Shown piece by piece: positions 43,140 to 46,880 of a DNA stretch of 64,000 nt. Made by a program: the position numbers and the translations under genes. The DNA is from Sphingorhabdus sp. YGSMI21 (GTDB taxonomy: Bacteria; Pseudomonadota; Alphaproteobacteria; Sphingomonadales; Sphingomonadaceae), in assembly GCF_002776575.1 (NCBI RefSeq), contig NZ_CP022548.1:1937001-2001000 (forward strand), given 5' to 3'. A model generated the notes under the pieces. That model ran no database searches. It was given only the letters and a program-made list of their open reading frames with translations, and was not told where the DNA came from. Numbering within the stretch: the stretch's first letter is position 1; each line of letters begins with the position of its first letter.

Positions 43140-43211
43140 CCGGCTATAGCATCACCGTCCTTTCCGCCCGCAAAGCGCGCCAGCCGCCGCCATCGCCTGT
43201 GCTCGGGACCG

Positions 43212-43244
43212 CCGGTCTCTCGACTGCGCTCGAGACGAACGGGG
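43212..43244. repeat. 33-bp repeat, copy 1
   Basis: Identical over 33 bases to 43630-43662. Contains the palindrome TCTCGACTGCGCTCGAGA. Confidence 0.9.
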
Positions 43245-43256
43245 ATTGTGGTGACA

Positions 43257-43334
43257 TTCGTCATTGCGAGCGTAGCGACGCAATCCAGAGCGGCGAGTGA
43301 CGCTCTGGTTTGCCGCGTCGCTCGCAATGACGAA
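43257..43334. repeat. Palindromic repeat with TTCGTCATTGCGAG ends, copy 1
   Basis: Its arms begin TTCGTCATTGCGAG and end CTCGCAATGACGAA; the interior also pairs in part (CCAGAGCG with CGCTCTGG). A second copy is at 43851-43951. Confidence 0.9.
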
Positions 43335-43362
43335 GGCATTCTCCACCGCGAAGGATATTCTT

Positions 43363-43398
43363 AAGCCCCTCCTTTTCAAAGGAGGGGTTGGGGTGGTT
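43363..43398. repeat. 36-bp repeat with CCCCTCCTTTT palindrome, copy 1
   Basis: Identical over 36 bases to 44905-44940. The core hairpin is CCCCTCCTTT / AAAGGAGGGG. The second copy lies inside a reading frame. Confidence 0.9.
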
Positions 43399-43500
43399 TC
43401 TTTCCTCTGGGCGCTGTGTTTGCGTTTCCATTCCGTCATCTCCGCTCCATCGCTTTTCGCTGACGCGAGCGATGCTTGCGCATCGCCACCACCCCAACCC

Positions 43501-43564
43501 AGTTCCGGGTGAAACGGCCCCCGGCCGTTTCAGTTCAGTCCGGGGGACTGATCGACCCGAAACT
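43501..43564. repeat. 64-base structured repeat, copy A
   Basis: Outer stem 43501-43510 with 43555-43564 (one mismatch). Hairpin 1 is GAAACGGC-CCCCG-GCCGTTTC (43511-43531). Hairpin 2 is CAGTC-CGGGG-GACTG (43536-43550). The loops CCCCG and CGGGG are complementary. Copy B is at 44794-44857. Confidence 0.85.
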
Positions 43565-43629
43565 TCTAAAGATGAGGGGCTTAGATTGGGCTCAGGACAG
43601 GCAAAGGTCGAGACACTTGTCCCTTTCCG

Positions 43630-43662
43630 CCGGTCTCTCGACTGCGCTCGAGACGAACGGGG
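43630..43662. repeat. 33-bp repeat, copy 2
   Basis: Exact second copy of 43212-43244, in the same orientation. Confidence 0.9.
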
Positions 43663-43698
43663 GGCGGGGCCATCATCGCGCTGCTGCGGCAAATAATC

Positions 43699-43776
43699 GT
43701 CATCCTGAACTTGTTTCAGGACCTCCGCCGGCAGCGCGCAGTCTCACGAGGTCCTGAAACAAGTTCAGGATGACGA
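43699..43776. repeat. Perfect 28-bp inverted repeat
   Basis: Arms 43699-43726 and 43749-43776 are exact complements, separated by 22 bases. Each arm contains CCTGAACTTGTTTCAGG, itself nearly palindromic. It could form a long cruciform or RNA hairpin. Confidence 0.95.
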
Positions 43777-43850
43777 AGCTGCTGCTTTCGATGACGAAGT
43801 TGTTAATCCGCATTGTCCCCATTCGCCTGAGAGGCCCTTCTCTATCAACA

Positions 43851-43951
43851 TTCGTCATTGCGAGCGTAGCGACGCAATCCAGAGCGTCTTGTCACGATCG
43901 TCAGCATTTGCCGCTCTGCTTTGCCGCGTCGCTCCGCTCCTCGCAATGACG
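43851..43951. repeat. Palindromic repeat with TTCGTCATTGCGAG ends, copy 2
   Basis: The left half matches 43257-43292. The right arm is CGCTCTGCTTTGCCGCGTCG followed by a duplicated CGCTCC stretch and the closing CTCGCAATGACGA. The middle differs from copy 1. Confidence 0.85.
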
Positions 43952-43983
43952 AGCGCCACCCGAAGTTTACAAACTTTACACTG

Positions 43984-45048
43984 TTATAGATTCTTTCCCT
44001 TCTCCCCCTCGTCACGTCGAAATTCGCGCATGGCTTCGGCGTTACAGGGCAGGGCGTTGATCACCGCTTCGTCGCGCGTGCCGGTGGGTGTCGCGGTCAG
44101 GCCGGGGACCTCGCGTTCCATTTCGGCGGCTTCTTCGGGAGTCATGCGATAATAGTCGGGCGGGCCGTCCTGATAGGGGAAGGCGATCGCGTAAAATTCC
44201 TCGCCCGTGTCTTCCACCGGCACCGGCCGCCCCTGCGCTTCGGCCCTGGCGGCCGCGATCGCCAGTTCCTCCTCGGTCGGCGTGGCGATCAGCGGCGCGG
44301 TGTCCTCGCCCACACGAATCGCGTCGAGCATATCGCCAAAGCGCGCCGCCCCGCGTTGCGCCGGGATCTGCTCGGCAATCTTGTCGAGCCGCGCCAGATG
44401 GGCGAGCAGCAGCCGGCTGTCATAGCGCCGCCGCGTCGCCACCACCTCGCCGTGGTAGAAGACCTCTTCCTCGACGCCTTCAATGGCCCGCTCCTGCAAC
44501 TTGTCCTGCGCCTCCTCCCGCGCCAGCACCAGGGCCGCCAGCCACGCCCGCGCAAAATCCGGATCGCGCCGTTTCAGGTCATAGGCCGACTGGCGGCTGC
44601 GCTGGACAAAATAGGCCGACGCCTGGACATTGCCGGTCTGCGCGAGCGCTTCGAGGAATTTGACGCGGAGTTCGCGGTGCCAGCCGTCATGGCGGGTGCA
44701 GTCCCCCTCCCGCTCGCGGGAGGGGCTAGGGGTGGGGGTGTCTGTTATATTAGCACCAGCACTCTCGGTTTCACACTGGCCCACCCCCGGCCCAGTATCA
44801 GGTGGAACTGCCCCCGGCAGTTCCAGATCAGTCCGGGGGACGGATCGACCTGATACTCGCAAGCGGGAGGGGGGTATCACTTCTCCGCCATCACCTTCAC
44901 TCTCAAGCCCCTCCTTTTCAAAGGAGGGGTTGGGGTGGTTACTCTCGTCCGAGCGGCCTTCTCGAGGCTCCGATCCACCTGCACCGTCCCCCGTTGCCTC
45001 ACCCCGCACCACCCGCAGGCGGTGAATAAATTCGTCCTGAAATGTCAT
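43984..45048 (-). CDS. Phage-type DNA-binding (terminase small subunit-like) protein with in-frame repeat insertion
   Basis: A 354-residue protein. Residues 1-20 (MTFQDEFIHRLRVVRGEA) and from about 118 on look like the real protein. The part RVKFLEALAQTGNVQASAYF, SRQSAYDLKRRDPDFARAW recalls helix-turn-helix segments near terminase small subunits. Residues of about 21-117 are encoded by three palindromic repeat types read in frame: NHPNPSFEKEGLE, SGRSVPRTDLELPGA and TPTPSPSREREGD. The start at 45048 has AAGGAG upstream. The acidic C-terminal half is unknown. Expression is plausible, but the insertion may have inactivated it. A paralogue fragment lies at 40949-41052. Confidence 0.65.
   Translation of the reverse strand: MTFQDEFIHRLRVVRGEATGDGAGGSEPREGRSDESNHPNPSFEKEGLESEGDGGEVIPPSRLRVSGRSVPRTDLELPGAVPPDTGPGVGQCETESAGANITDTPTPSPSREREGDCTRHDGWHRELRVKFLEALAQTGNVQASAYFVQRSRQSAYDLKRRDPDFARAWLAALVLAREEAQDKLQERAIEGVEEEVFYHGEVVATRRRYDSRLLLAHLARLDKIAEQIPAQRGAARFGDMLDAIRVGEDTAPLIATPTEEELAIAAARAEAQGRPVPVEDTGEEFYAIAFPYQDGPPDYYRMTPEEAAEMEREVPGLTATPTGTRDEAVINALPCNAEAMREFRRDEGEKGKNL
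44701..44740. repeat. CCCCTCCCGC palindromic repeat inside the reading frame
   Basis: The hairpin CCCCTCCCGC-T-CGCGGGAGGGG is followed by CTAGGGGTGGGGGTG. On the minus strand it is translated as TPTPSPSREREGD within the 43984-45048 protein. Confidence 0.75.
44794..44857. repeat. 64-base structured repeat, copy B, inside the reading frame
   Basis: Perfect outer stem AGTATCAGGT / ACCTGATACT. Hairpin 1 is GGAACTGC-CCCCG-GCAGTTCC, and hairpin 2 is CAGTC-CGGGG-GACGG with one mismatch. Element lengths and spacers are identical to copy A at 43501-43564. Confidence 0.85.
44905..44940. repeat. 36-bp repeat with CCCCTCCTTTT palindrome, copy 2, inside the reading frame
   Basis: Exact copy of 43363-43398. 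On the minus strand it is translated as NHPNPSFEKEGL. Confidence 0.9.
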
Positions 45049-45233
45049 AGGTTTTACTCCTTGTATGGGACCATGCCGGCCGCCGCACAGCGGTGCGGGG
45101 GCTTGGGGATGGTTTGTTAAAGGGAGAAATAATAACCTATTTGGTTGAGTGTAGGAAAGGGGAAAATTGATTATCCTACGCATACCCAATAATAGTGTTT
45201 GACGTTTCTAGCTGTATAACTAATTATATTCCC

Positions 45234-46880
45234 ATGAAAAAGATCAGTACAAATCCTTCACAACTTCGGCAAGGAATGAGTATCGGTACCGGCAATGCTG
45301 AGACCGATGATGAGTTTCTTTTTGATTGTTTTGTTAATCATGGTTCGAAGTTTGAGTTTGAAAAATGTAGTTCACCAAGGATGATCATCGCGGGTCGAAC
45401 GGGGTCAGGGAAAACGGCAATTCTTCGTCAGATATATCATGAAGCTGAACATGCTGTGGAACTCGATCTCACAGAAATGTCTATGAACTATGTTTCAAAT
45501 TCAGACGCCTTGAGGTTTCTCAATTCGATTGGCGCTGATTTGGATTTGTTATTCCAAATATTATGGAAACACGTTCTTTGTATCGAATTCATCCGACTTA
45601 GGTGGTCTGTAGATTCAGTTGAAAAATCAAATAGCATTTTCCAGAAAATAGTCGATCGTTTTGGCAATAATCCTCGGAAAGCGAAGGCGATCAAATACCT
45701 GAAAGACTGGGAGGGGCGTTTTTGGATAACGATGGATGAAAACATCAAAGAGATAACGGAGAGTTTTGAGAACAAGTTTGGGGCAGAATTTGGCCTTGAT
45801 ATTGAGAAGTTTTCCGCAGGCGGTCAATATGACAAAAGGATGAGTGTCGACAAAAAGAAAGAAATCGTTGCGAGAACAAAGCAAATCATTGATTCCAATC
45901 AACTCCAGGAATTAGCTCAGATTATTGATGTTTTAGCTGAATTGTCTGACTTGGAGGGGATGAAGAGTTATTATTTGCTTATCGATAAATTGGACGAACA
46001 TTGGGTGGACGCAGAGGTTAGGTTCAAGATGATCCGCGCACTGCTATCCAGCTTACGCCAGTTTAGAAAAATATCTAATCTCAAGATATTGGCAGCATTG
46101 CGAACAGACGTTCGAGAACGAGTTATGTTGGAGACCACCGATCCGACTTTTCAGAGAGAGAAGTTTGATGATTATGCTCTCAATGTAACTTGGAAAAAAC
46201 AACAACTTTTAGAGTTGGTTGATTTGCGAATAGGACAGCTATTTAAAAGGCAGTACACAAACGATACCGTAAAATATTCTACAATATTTCCGGCCAAAAT
46301 GGCTAGTAACAAAGATACATTTTCTTGGATGCTTGAAAGAACACTAATGCGACCGCGGGATATTATACACTTTATAAATGAGTGTATTGATATGTCTGAA
46401 GGGGATTATGACATATCTGTGCGCAATATTAAAAAAGCAGAGTATGAATATTCGCGGAAACGTCGAGATGCTTTATTGCAGGAATGGTATAGTGCTCAAC
46501 CTCATTTGGATGAGATGATACGGCTATTTGTCGATAAGGAGCGCCGAGTTTATAAGCTAGGCGCGATTCCAACTGACAAAATCCAAGAGACTGCAATGAA
46601 TATCGCTGCACGACCAAACCCTCAGAAGGATCTTTTTTGGGATATGTGCAAAAACGTGTTCGATGGAGAGGGTGTTTCGGAAGTTGAGATGGTAAGCGTC
46701 GCCGCTTCAATATGTTATCGTGTAGGTGCTATAGGTTTGAAATTGAGCACCGAAGAACCGTTCGTCTATTCTCATTTAAACGAGCCGCTCATCCCATTCG
46801 ATGTTCTTTCCACCGATACGAAAGTCAAAGTGCATCCTATGTTGCACGGCGCTTATAGAATATCAGTTGTTGGTGAATAA
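45234..46880 (+). CDS. P-loop ATPase, resembling the Sll1717 family
   Basis: A 548-residue ATPase. Walker A is IIAGRTGSGKT (motif at residues 54-61) and Walker B is YYLLIDKLDEH at about 249-259. An Arg-containing sensor-like segment is AALRTDVRERV. The C-terminal half is helical with a winged-helix-like end. This pattern fits the standalone Sll1717-type P-loop ATPases; the biological role is unknown to me. Codon use is AT-rich and very unlike the neighbours, so it was probably acquired by transfer. ATG at 45234 was chosen; a GTG at 45195 is also open and neither has a clear Shine-Dalgarno sequence. Confidence 0.75.
   Translation: MKKISTNPSQLRQGMSIGTGNAETDDEFLFDCFVNHGSKFEFEKCSSPRMIIAGRTGSGKTAILRQIYHEAEHAVELDLTEMSMNYVSNSDALRFLNSIGADLDLLFQILWKHVLCIEFIRLRWSVDSVEKSNSIFQKIVDRFGNNPRKAKAIKYLKDWEGRFWITMDENIKEITESFENKFGAEFGLDIEKFSAGGQYDKRMSVDKKKEIVARTKQIIDSNQLQELAQIIDVLAELSDLEGMKSYYLLIDKLDEHWVDAEVRFKMIRALLSSLRQFRKISNLKILAALRTDVRERVMLETTDPTFQREKFDDYALNVTWKKQQLLELVDLRIGQLFKRQYTNDTVKYSTIFPAKMASNKDTFSWMLERTLMRPRDIIHFINECIDMSEGDYDISVRNIKKAEYEYSRKRRDALLQEWYSAQPHLDEMIRLFVDKERRVYKLGAIPTDKIQETAMNIAARPNPQKDLFWDMCKNVFDGEGVSEVEMVSVAASICYRVGAIGLKLSTEEPFVYSHLNEPLIPFDVLSTDTKVKVHPMLHGAYRISVVGE

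Follow-up and report, generated by a model that had tools for sequence, protein, structure and literature searches.

Insertion sequences and MITEs usually duplicate their target site, and compensatory changes in a stem are commonly regarded as proving that an RNA fold is under selection. The double-hairpin elements of Allomyces mitochondria are tiny hairpin elements with presumed mobility. In bacteria, REP elements and their dimers, which comprise GTAG and CGTC super-families and are mobilised by RAYT transposases, are described as short palindromes, some of the dimers lying inside other palindromes or genes (PMC3733652), with a copy number given in one account as usually above 100 per genome (PMC2817692), and the Rickettsia palindromic elements (RPEs) are reported as palindromic repeats that lie in frame within protein genes (PMC10969869). 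For the GC clusters of yeast mitochondria, AG target bases and a putative target-site duplication have been described (PMC4478555), and the palindromes of Volvox organelles are reported to be often nested in one another (PMC2670323).

Here we analyse two copies of a 64-bp repeat in a stretch of 64,000 nucleotides (the window; positions 1,937,001 to 2,001,000 of contig NZ_CP022548.1) of Sphingorhabdus sp. YGSMI21. They belong to a real, widespread and structured mobile DNA element, whose insertion footprint is recurrent and unusual and for which we infer a mover and a rewriting step. No published description of this element was found in the open-licence PMC literature searched.

Results

Two copies of a three-armed element

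The first-pass annotation had described two 64-bp repeats of identical layout, each with an outer stem and two hairpins, and both its coordinates and its architecture were correct. The features below rest on the sequence, on folding and on the comparison with the family.

43501-43564, + strand: element copy 1, 64 bp, three-armed
43501-43510/43555-43564, + strand: outer stem of copy 1
43511-43531, + strand: hairpin 1 of copy 1, with CCC triloop
43532, + strand: linker A of copy 1
43533-43553, + strand: hairpin 2 of copy 1, with GGG triloop
43554, + strand: linker G of copy 1
44794-44857, + strand: element copy 2, 64 bp, same layout as copy 1
44794-44803/44848-44857, + strand: outer stem of copy 2
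44804-44824, + strand: hairpin 1 of copy 2
44825, + strand: linker A of copy 2
44826-44846, + strand: hairpin 2 of copy 2
44847, + strand: linker G of copy 2

Reading the sequences confirmed the four reported pairs that differ on both sides between the copies and are still paired. The outer stem has two of them (T-A/A-T and G-C/A-T), as does hairpin 1 (A-T/G-C and G-C/T-A). Three more pairs, omitted from that account, show one-sided differences, each with a mismatch in a single copy: copy 1 has C43505·A43560 and T43534·T43552, and copy 2 has A44830·G44842. The complementarity noted between loop 1 and loop 2 is present in both copies; the part of it common to nearly all relatives is that of the triloops, CCC and GGG. 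A 22-base core pattern derived from the copies had two matches, which are these two, compared with none in 100 shuffles. RNA folding z-scores of the + strands were -3.65 and -6.67; the single-sequence RNA minimum of the copy 2 + strand is a rival fold in which its two hairpins pair with each other, and the RNA fold of its - strand is the three-armed form. A third copy lies outside the window in the same genome (G000:C1:2809099-2809162).

Range and copy number of the family

Genomes were searched with a covariance model built from 12 copies. At E 0.01 the model matched 15 of the 32 genus genomes, and at E 0.001 it matched 73 genomes, from 21 of 96 genera, in a family sample of 397. A class sample of 385 genomes contained two genomes with matches, the window's own and G160, both Sphingomonadaceae; at most 13 candidates per genome were scored in the family and class samples. 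Deeper scoring, with 150 candidates per genome, gave matches in 18 of 20 chosen genomes with a maximum of 33 in one (both strands counted), and copy number extends up to a few tens of matches per Sphingomonadaceae genome. An exact scan of species genomes for the hairpin-2 pattern identified at least 120 stretches, and the 80 among them that were listed were all from Sphingomonadales (named as Sphingomonas, Sphingobium, Sphingopyxis, Sphingomonadaceae or Sphingomonadales), at least six coming from genomes also present in the other samples. Within the genomes searched, the element is restricted to Sphingomonadaceae. Copy 1, as a single 64-bp query, had no match in plasmids, and copy 2, likewise as a single 64-bp query, had none in phages.

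Layout and covariation of the stems

Copies found by structure-model or core-pattern search were passed through a scanner that required linker A, the CCC and GGG triloops and 8 of 10 outer pairs, and that allowed each hairpin no more than one unpaired position, G·T being taken as paired. The scanner was applied for the pair counts, the comparison of double with single changes (7 vs 6), the gap search with 104 copies, the 60-copy alignment and the covariation analysis, and because it selects on these features the pairing rate, the triloops and the linker of the copies kept are partly given by construction. In an alignment of 60 copies, chosen for diversity from 95 distinct 64-mers, 98.3% of 1680 cells were paired, and the outer stem, which constitutes the terminal inverted repeats, was paired in 96.5% of its cells. 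RNAalifold recovered the identical three stems. The stem covariation that the first-pass annotation had proposed to look for in a wide alignment was found: double changes occurred at 26 of 28 pairs, and in this set, selected partly by structure, 527 cells carried them compared with a shuffled mean of 160.7, none of 500 shuffles being as high. Such coordinated pair changes across a wide family argue for more than plain sequence copying.

A fairer set comprised 79 copies for which hairpin 2 and its right foot were the sole anchor, the hairpin-2 sequence being fixed by the pattern. Hairpin 1 was found upstream in 78 of them, five of which were also in the first set, and these 78 showed the CCC triloop in 75 cases, linker A in all and an outer stem with 9 or 10 Watson-Crick pairs in 69, compared with 24 of 1580 trials that passed in a shuffled upstream control. 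The layout of the family is an outer stem, hairpin 1 with CCC, one A, hairpin 2 with GGG and one G, and GGT..ACC occupies outer-stem columns 8-10/55-57 of the 60-copy alignment. The outer stem usually has 10 bp and in a minority about 20 bp; stems of about 20 bp with AGTT..AACT-like ends were seen at loci L029, L032, L203 and L205 (also L206).

The element replaces about four target bases

That the element is mobile, nested in another repeat and standing in place of four bases had been missed in the first-pass annotation. At a locus between a SnoaL-like gene and a helix-turn-helix gene (as read from the ORFs), it is present in the window's genome and in G010 and G029, and the host repeat is empty in G024, G012 and G004 (CCACCCCAACCC CTCC TTTnAAAAGGAGGGGCTT), orthology of the last two being judged from the downstream gene and the intergenic match only. 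Comparison of the empty form, CCACCCCAACCC-[CTCC]-TTTnAAAAGGAGGGG, with the filled form, CCACCCCAACCC-[64 bp]-TTT.., revealed that the 64-mer replaces CTCC. Five other genomes examined at this locus are without that host repeat there.

Empty analogues of each copy, defined as its 14-bp flanks separated by a short gap, were searched for among the collected loci. In the first set they were found for 56 of 104 copies, and 45 of these 56 showed a gap of exactly four. In a second set of 100 copies (loci L215-L334) they were found for 82, and 72 of these showed a gap of four; after removal of the 4 copies common to the first set, the latter figures are 71 of 80 (of 96 copies). Eleven of the 56 and 10 of the 82 copies were without a four-base analogue. 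Counted by copy and gap sequence, gap lengths in the first set were 3 (20), 4 (58), 5 (19), 6 (4), 7 (2) and 8 (1), and in the second, in which one copy can show several lengths, gaps of 3, 5, 6, 12 and 19 were seen in 32, 31, 18, 11 and 7 of the 82 copies, respectively; gaps other than four occur partly because the sites lie in C/G runs. CTCC/GGAG was the most frequent four-base sequence, and ACCG, CCGC, CTCT, CTGG, AGGG, CCAA, CAGG, GTGG and others were also observed. The element can occupy one host position in either orientation (L056, L086-L088 and L126 are opposite to the majority), and its target bases are replaced instead of duplicated.

Locus L073 (G271:C1:2131500-2134400) contains a second rpoA that is partial and decayed, with the intact gene about 5 kb away. 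Four different elements lie in it within about 750 bp:

1080-1143 of L073: element in decayed rpoA
1253-1318 of L073: element in decayed rpoA
1560-1623 of L073: element in decayed rpoA
1763-1826 of L073: element in decayed rpoA

With the sites read from the alignment to the intact gene, the replaced bases are CGCT, CGAT, CATC and GACAT, that is, four bases at three sites and five at one, an 11-bp outer stem being taken at two sites. Reading frames are broken in the decayed copy; the four insertions had suggested that the elements are removed from the RNA or bypassed in translation, an idea rejected because G271 carries the intact rpoA nearby. Any two of the three 64-bp elements of this gene differ at 14 or more positions, and a comparison of 8 G271 copies revealed no close source; plain copy-and-paste does not account for this. 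The element is mobile DNA: filled and empty relatives show insertion without showing the moving form, and the evidence here is of past insertions, none of it of ongoing movement.

Host repeats and protein genes

The element often lies inside another palindromic repeat with a G-rich tail and sometimes in genes. The host repeats of the two window copies and their uninterrupted counterparts are as follows.

43486-43500, + strand: left remnant of the host repeat of copy 1 (CCACCACCCCAACCC), from empty analogues with CTCC between the remnants
43565-43582, + strand: right remnant of the host repeat of copy 1 (TCTAAAGATGAGGGGCTT), from empty analogues
44778-44793, + strand: left remnant of the host repeat of copy 2 (GGCCCACCCCCGGCCC), from empty analogues
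44858-44872, + strand: right remnant of the host repeat of copy 2 (CGCAAGCGGGAGGGG), from empty analogues
43363-43396, + strand: uninterrupted ('empty') host repeat of the copy-1 type (AAGCCCCTCCTTTTCAAAGGAGGGGTTGGGGTGG), repeat family D6
44905-44938, + strand: second uninterrupted host repeat of the copy-1 type, repeat family D6
44703-44738, + strand: uninterrupted host repeat of the copy-2 type (CCCTCCCGC..GCGGGAGGG plus G-rich tail), from sequence reading
43987-45048, - strand: ORF of 354 aa whose N-terminal linker includes copy 2 in frame, translated as VSGRSVPRTDLELPGAVPPDT

Positions 43200-45000 of the window are dense with different palindromic repeat families (CGTCATTGCGAG.., CGTCATCCTGAAC.., CCGGTCTCTCGACTGCGCTCGAGAC.., CCCCTCC..GGAGGGG). 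A common target (..GGGGAGGGGTTGGGGTGGGG.., for example at L087 and L050) has four G-runs, for which a G-quadruplex or a hairpin is possible. Directly 3' of the repeat region, 45195-46877 (+) encodes a P-loop ATPase-like protein with weak matches to AAA_16 and NACHT, below the cut-offs.

The 354-aa ORF had no Pfam family at E 0.001, and the protein records of its close relatives name Parasphingorhabdus and Sphingorhabdus. One relative reads PPSRLR-EGPGVG without the element (P0004) and another PPSRLR-VSGRSVPRTDLELPGAVPPDT-GPGVG with it (P0007). In this protein family the N-terminal linker serves as a landing pad, with several other palindromic repeat families also read in frame there (NHPNPSFEKEGL, RHPEFISG, DKSVRLERSRETG, RPELVEG). 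In a second protein family (L065, G374:C116, element at 1501-1564), the corresponding segment has 19 residues in 85 and 39 residues in 23 of the 108 homologs that were measurable among 120 listed; the insertion adds exactly 20 residues, and 20 codons equal 64-4 bp. A net gain of 60 bp allows an insertion to add 20 residues in frame, and the element in this gene is apparently a long-retained coding insertion (23 of the 108 measurable homologs).

How the arms are kept paired

Among copies that differ in one pair, double and single changes numbered 7 vs 6 in the first set and 12 vs 10 in the second, two comparisons that share copies and are not independent; the orthologous copy L038, which has two mismatches, failed the scanner and is absent from the 7-vs-6 comparison as well as from those of loop apices and orthologues. 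In the second set, both sides carry a transversion in 8 of the 12 double changes. If the two mutations were independent and the intermediate tolerated, more one-sided changes would be expected, so copying of one arm onto the other in one step fits better, and arm-templated rewriting is favoured over stepwise selection. Of the earlier proposal that the repeats reflect selection on folding beyond copying, the coordinated pairing changes hold family-wide, whereas selection does not follow, double changes being as common as single ones. A relative of window copy 2 in G010 (L026, 308-348) has lost exactly hairpin 2 and the linkers and retains one hairpin on the outer stem; together with the variation in outer-stem length, this exact loss suggests that DNA hairpins may be intermediates. 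At four orthologous loci the element is identical at 60-63 of 64 positions compared with about 78-89% for the 200-bp flanks, which indicates that some copies may be under selection in place and counts against a purely mutational view.

Taking these data together, we consider it probable (roughly 70%) that both repeats represent a miniature mobile DNA element, non-autonomous and restricted to one lineage, that replaces about four target bases and keeps a three-armed layout while the letters of its stems covary. More tentatively, and with clearly less confidence, this DNA could be inherited as a shape rather than as a sequence, its stems being rewritten in concert on or between moves, its loops and junction bases staying fixed, and a dedicated reaction swapping four target base pairs for the folded 64-mer. 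In the main reading, the element would move as single-stranded DNA folded into the three-armed form, and a putative protein would recognise the triloops, the GGT/ACC stem base and the unpaired A and G. Hairpin-templated synthesis or heteroduplex repair would copy one arm onto the other and so keep complementarity, and badly mismatched copies would be lost.

The concerted double changes between nearest copies and the exact loss of hairpin 2 in one relative would also be expected if replication template switching and single-strand annealing at hairpins created, copied and repaired the element without a dedicated enzyme, template switching having been proposed as a process that creates and mends hairpins (PMC8794818). 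We regard this as unlikely, since the recurrent four-base replacement at unrelated sites and the constant layout suggest a defined reaction; the end bases, determined by extended stem, are often, not always, AG..CT (108 of 212), which likewise speaks against it.

Folding as DNA or as RNA

If one RNA strand were selected, G·U would be expected to be tolerated above A·C. Among the 2806 pairs of 100 distinct cores, 2722 were Watson-Crick, 31 G·T, 34 A·C and 19 other, and hairpin 1 and the outer stem of 66 distinct anchored copies had 1195 Watson-Crick, 13 G·T, 24 A·C and 22 other pairs. G·U was not favoured over A·C, so it seems to be as DNA that the fold matters and on DNA that the constraint or process acts. 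The 7-nt loop apices were mutually complementary in 39 of 100 copies compared with 37.1 expected if they were independent, so that the kissing interaction suggested in the first-pass annotation is unsupported beyond the shared CCC/GGG, and kissing loops of that wider kind were discarded.

These counts bear on the view that the element is a structured RNA, cis-regulatory or small, with a three-way junction and kissing loops, whose fold is selected and which has spread in repeats and acts when transcribed. The strong covariation, the conserved triloops and junction bases, and the slower evolution of the element than of its flanks at the four orthologous loci would all agree with it, as would the lean towards A·C in the anchored set (24 vs 13, p 0.10), which, if real, would weakly point at the opposite strand. 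Folded-RNA action was nevertheless not preferred, and we judge it rather improbable: G·T and A·C are balanced in the larger set (31 vs 34), the 8 transversions among the 12 minimal double changes have no path through G·U, the loop apices do not covary, Rfam had no match in the window at gathering scores, and the element lies in repeats, unrelated genes and a decayed gene, in either orientation.

Search for a mover

The window's genome has four IS200-type Y1 genes; the scanner detected no element at their loci, and these genes were dropped as candidates for the mover. RAYT-like genes, taken as near full-length genes by our own cut, were found in 30 genomes, only 5 of 397 genomes passing the curated family cut-off. 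The element was present in 14 of these 30 genomes and in 59 of the 367 others (Fisher p 2e-4, ignoring kinship). This enrichment, the two inverted hairpins with complementary loops and the description of REP dimers inside palindromes in one report (PMC3733652) would suit a REP dimer (REPIN-like) moved by a RAYT tyrosine transposase, with hairpin 2 an inverted relative of hairpin 1 and the loops complementary for that reason. We hold such an origin to be improbable, because the element was found at none of the 30 RAYT-like loci (about 1.5 kb on each side where the contig allows), 59 of the 73 element genomes have no such gene and so few genomes exceed the curated cut-off, and because copies per genome are few, an unpaired GTAG or CGTC tag is lacking and GGT lies within the outer stem. 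Despite the enriched co-occurrence, RAYT/REPIN was set aside for want of linkage, although a RAYT may act on the element from a distance. In the two classes examined (IS200-type and RAYT-like loci), no autonomous parent with the same ends was found.

Discussion

The recurrent four-base replacement differs from the usual duplications and provides a signature with which the responsible enzyme can be sought; such a four-base exchange seems to be without description in the literature consulted on related elements. The concerted changes of the arms constitute a natural test of the proposal, put forward in one study, that DNA-level templated events yield 'compensatory' changes (PMC8794818). They also call for caution in surveys of RNA motifs, as strong covariation alone can mark a mobile DNA palindrome. 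Through the net gain of 60 bp a protein can acquire 20 residues without a frame shift, and one such insertion has been kept in relatives.

Comparison with known systems

Like REP dimers and REPINs, the element has two inverted hairpins, but in the 60-copy alignment it has no unpaired GTAG/CGTC tag at the hairpin foot, its hairpins are joined by a third (outer) stem with arms that vary in concert, it replaces about four bases, it lies beside none of the 30 RAYT-like genes, and its copy number is low, with at most 33 matches, on both strands, among 20 genomes. It resembles RPEs, which were compared by description only, in lying in frame in the window ORF and in a second protein family, but with 64 bp compared with about 150 bp it is shorter, three-armed and often inside other repeats. 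The layout and covariation are those of three-way-junction RNAs, from which the element differs in having no G·U preference and no covarying loop contact. It is short and non-autonomous with inverted ends, as MITEs are, but no target-site duplication was seen. With the fungal GC clusters and double-hairpin elements and the Volvox palindromes it shares the character of a tiny hairpin element thought to move; whereas GC clusters have a putative duplication, this element loses its target bases, resides in bacterial chromosomes and is built of three stems.
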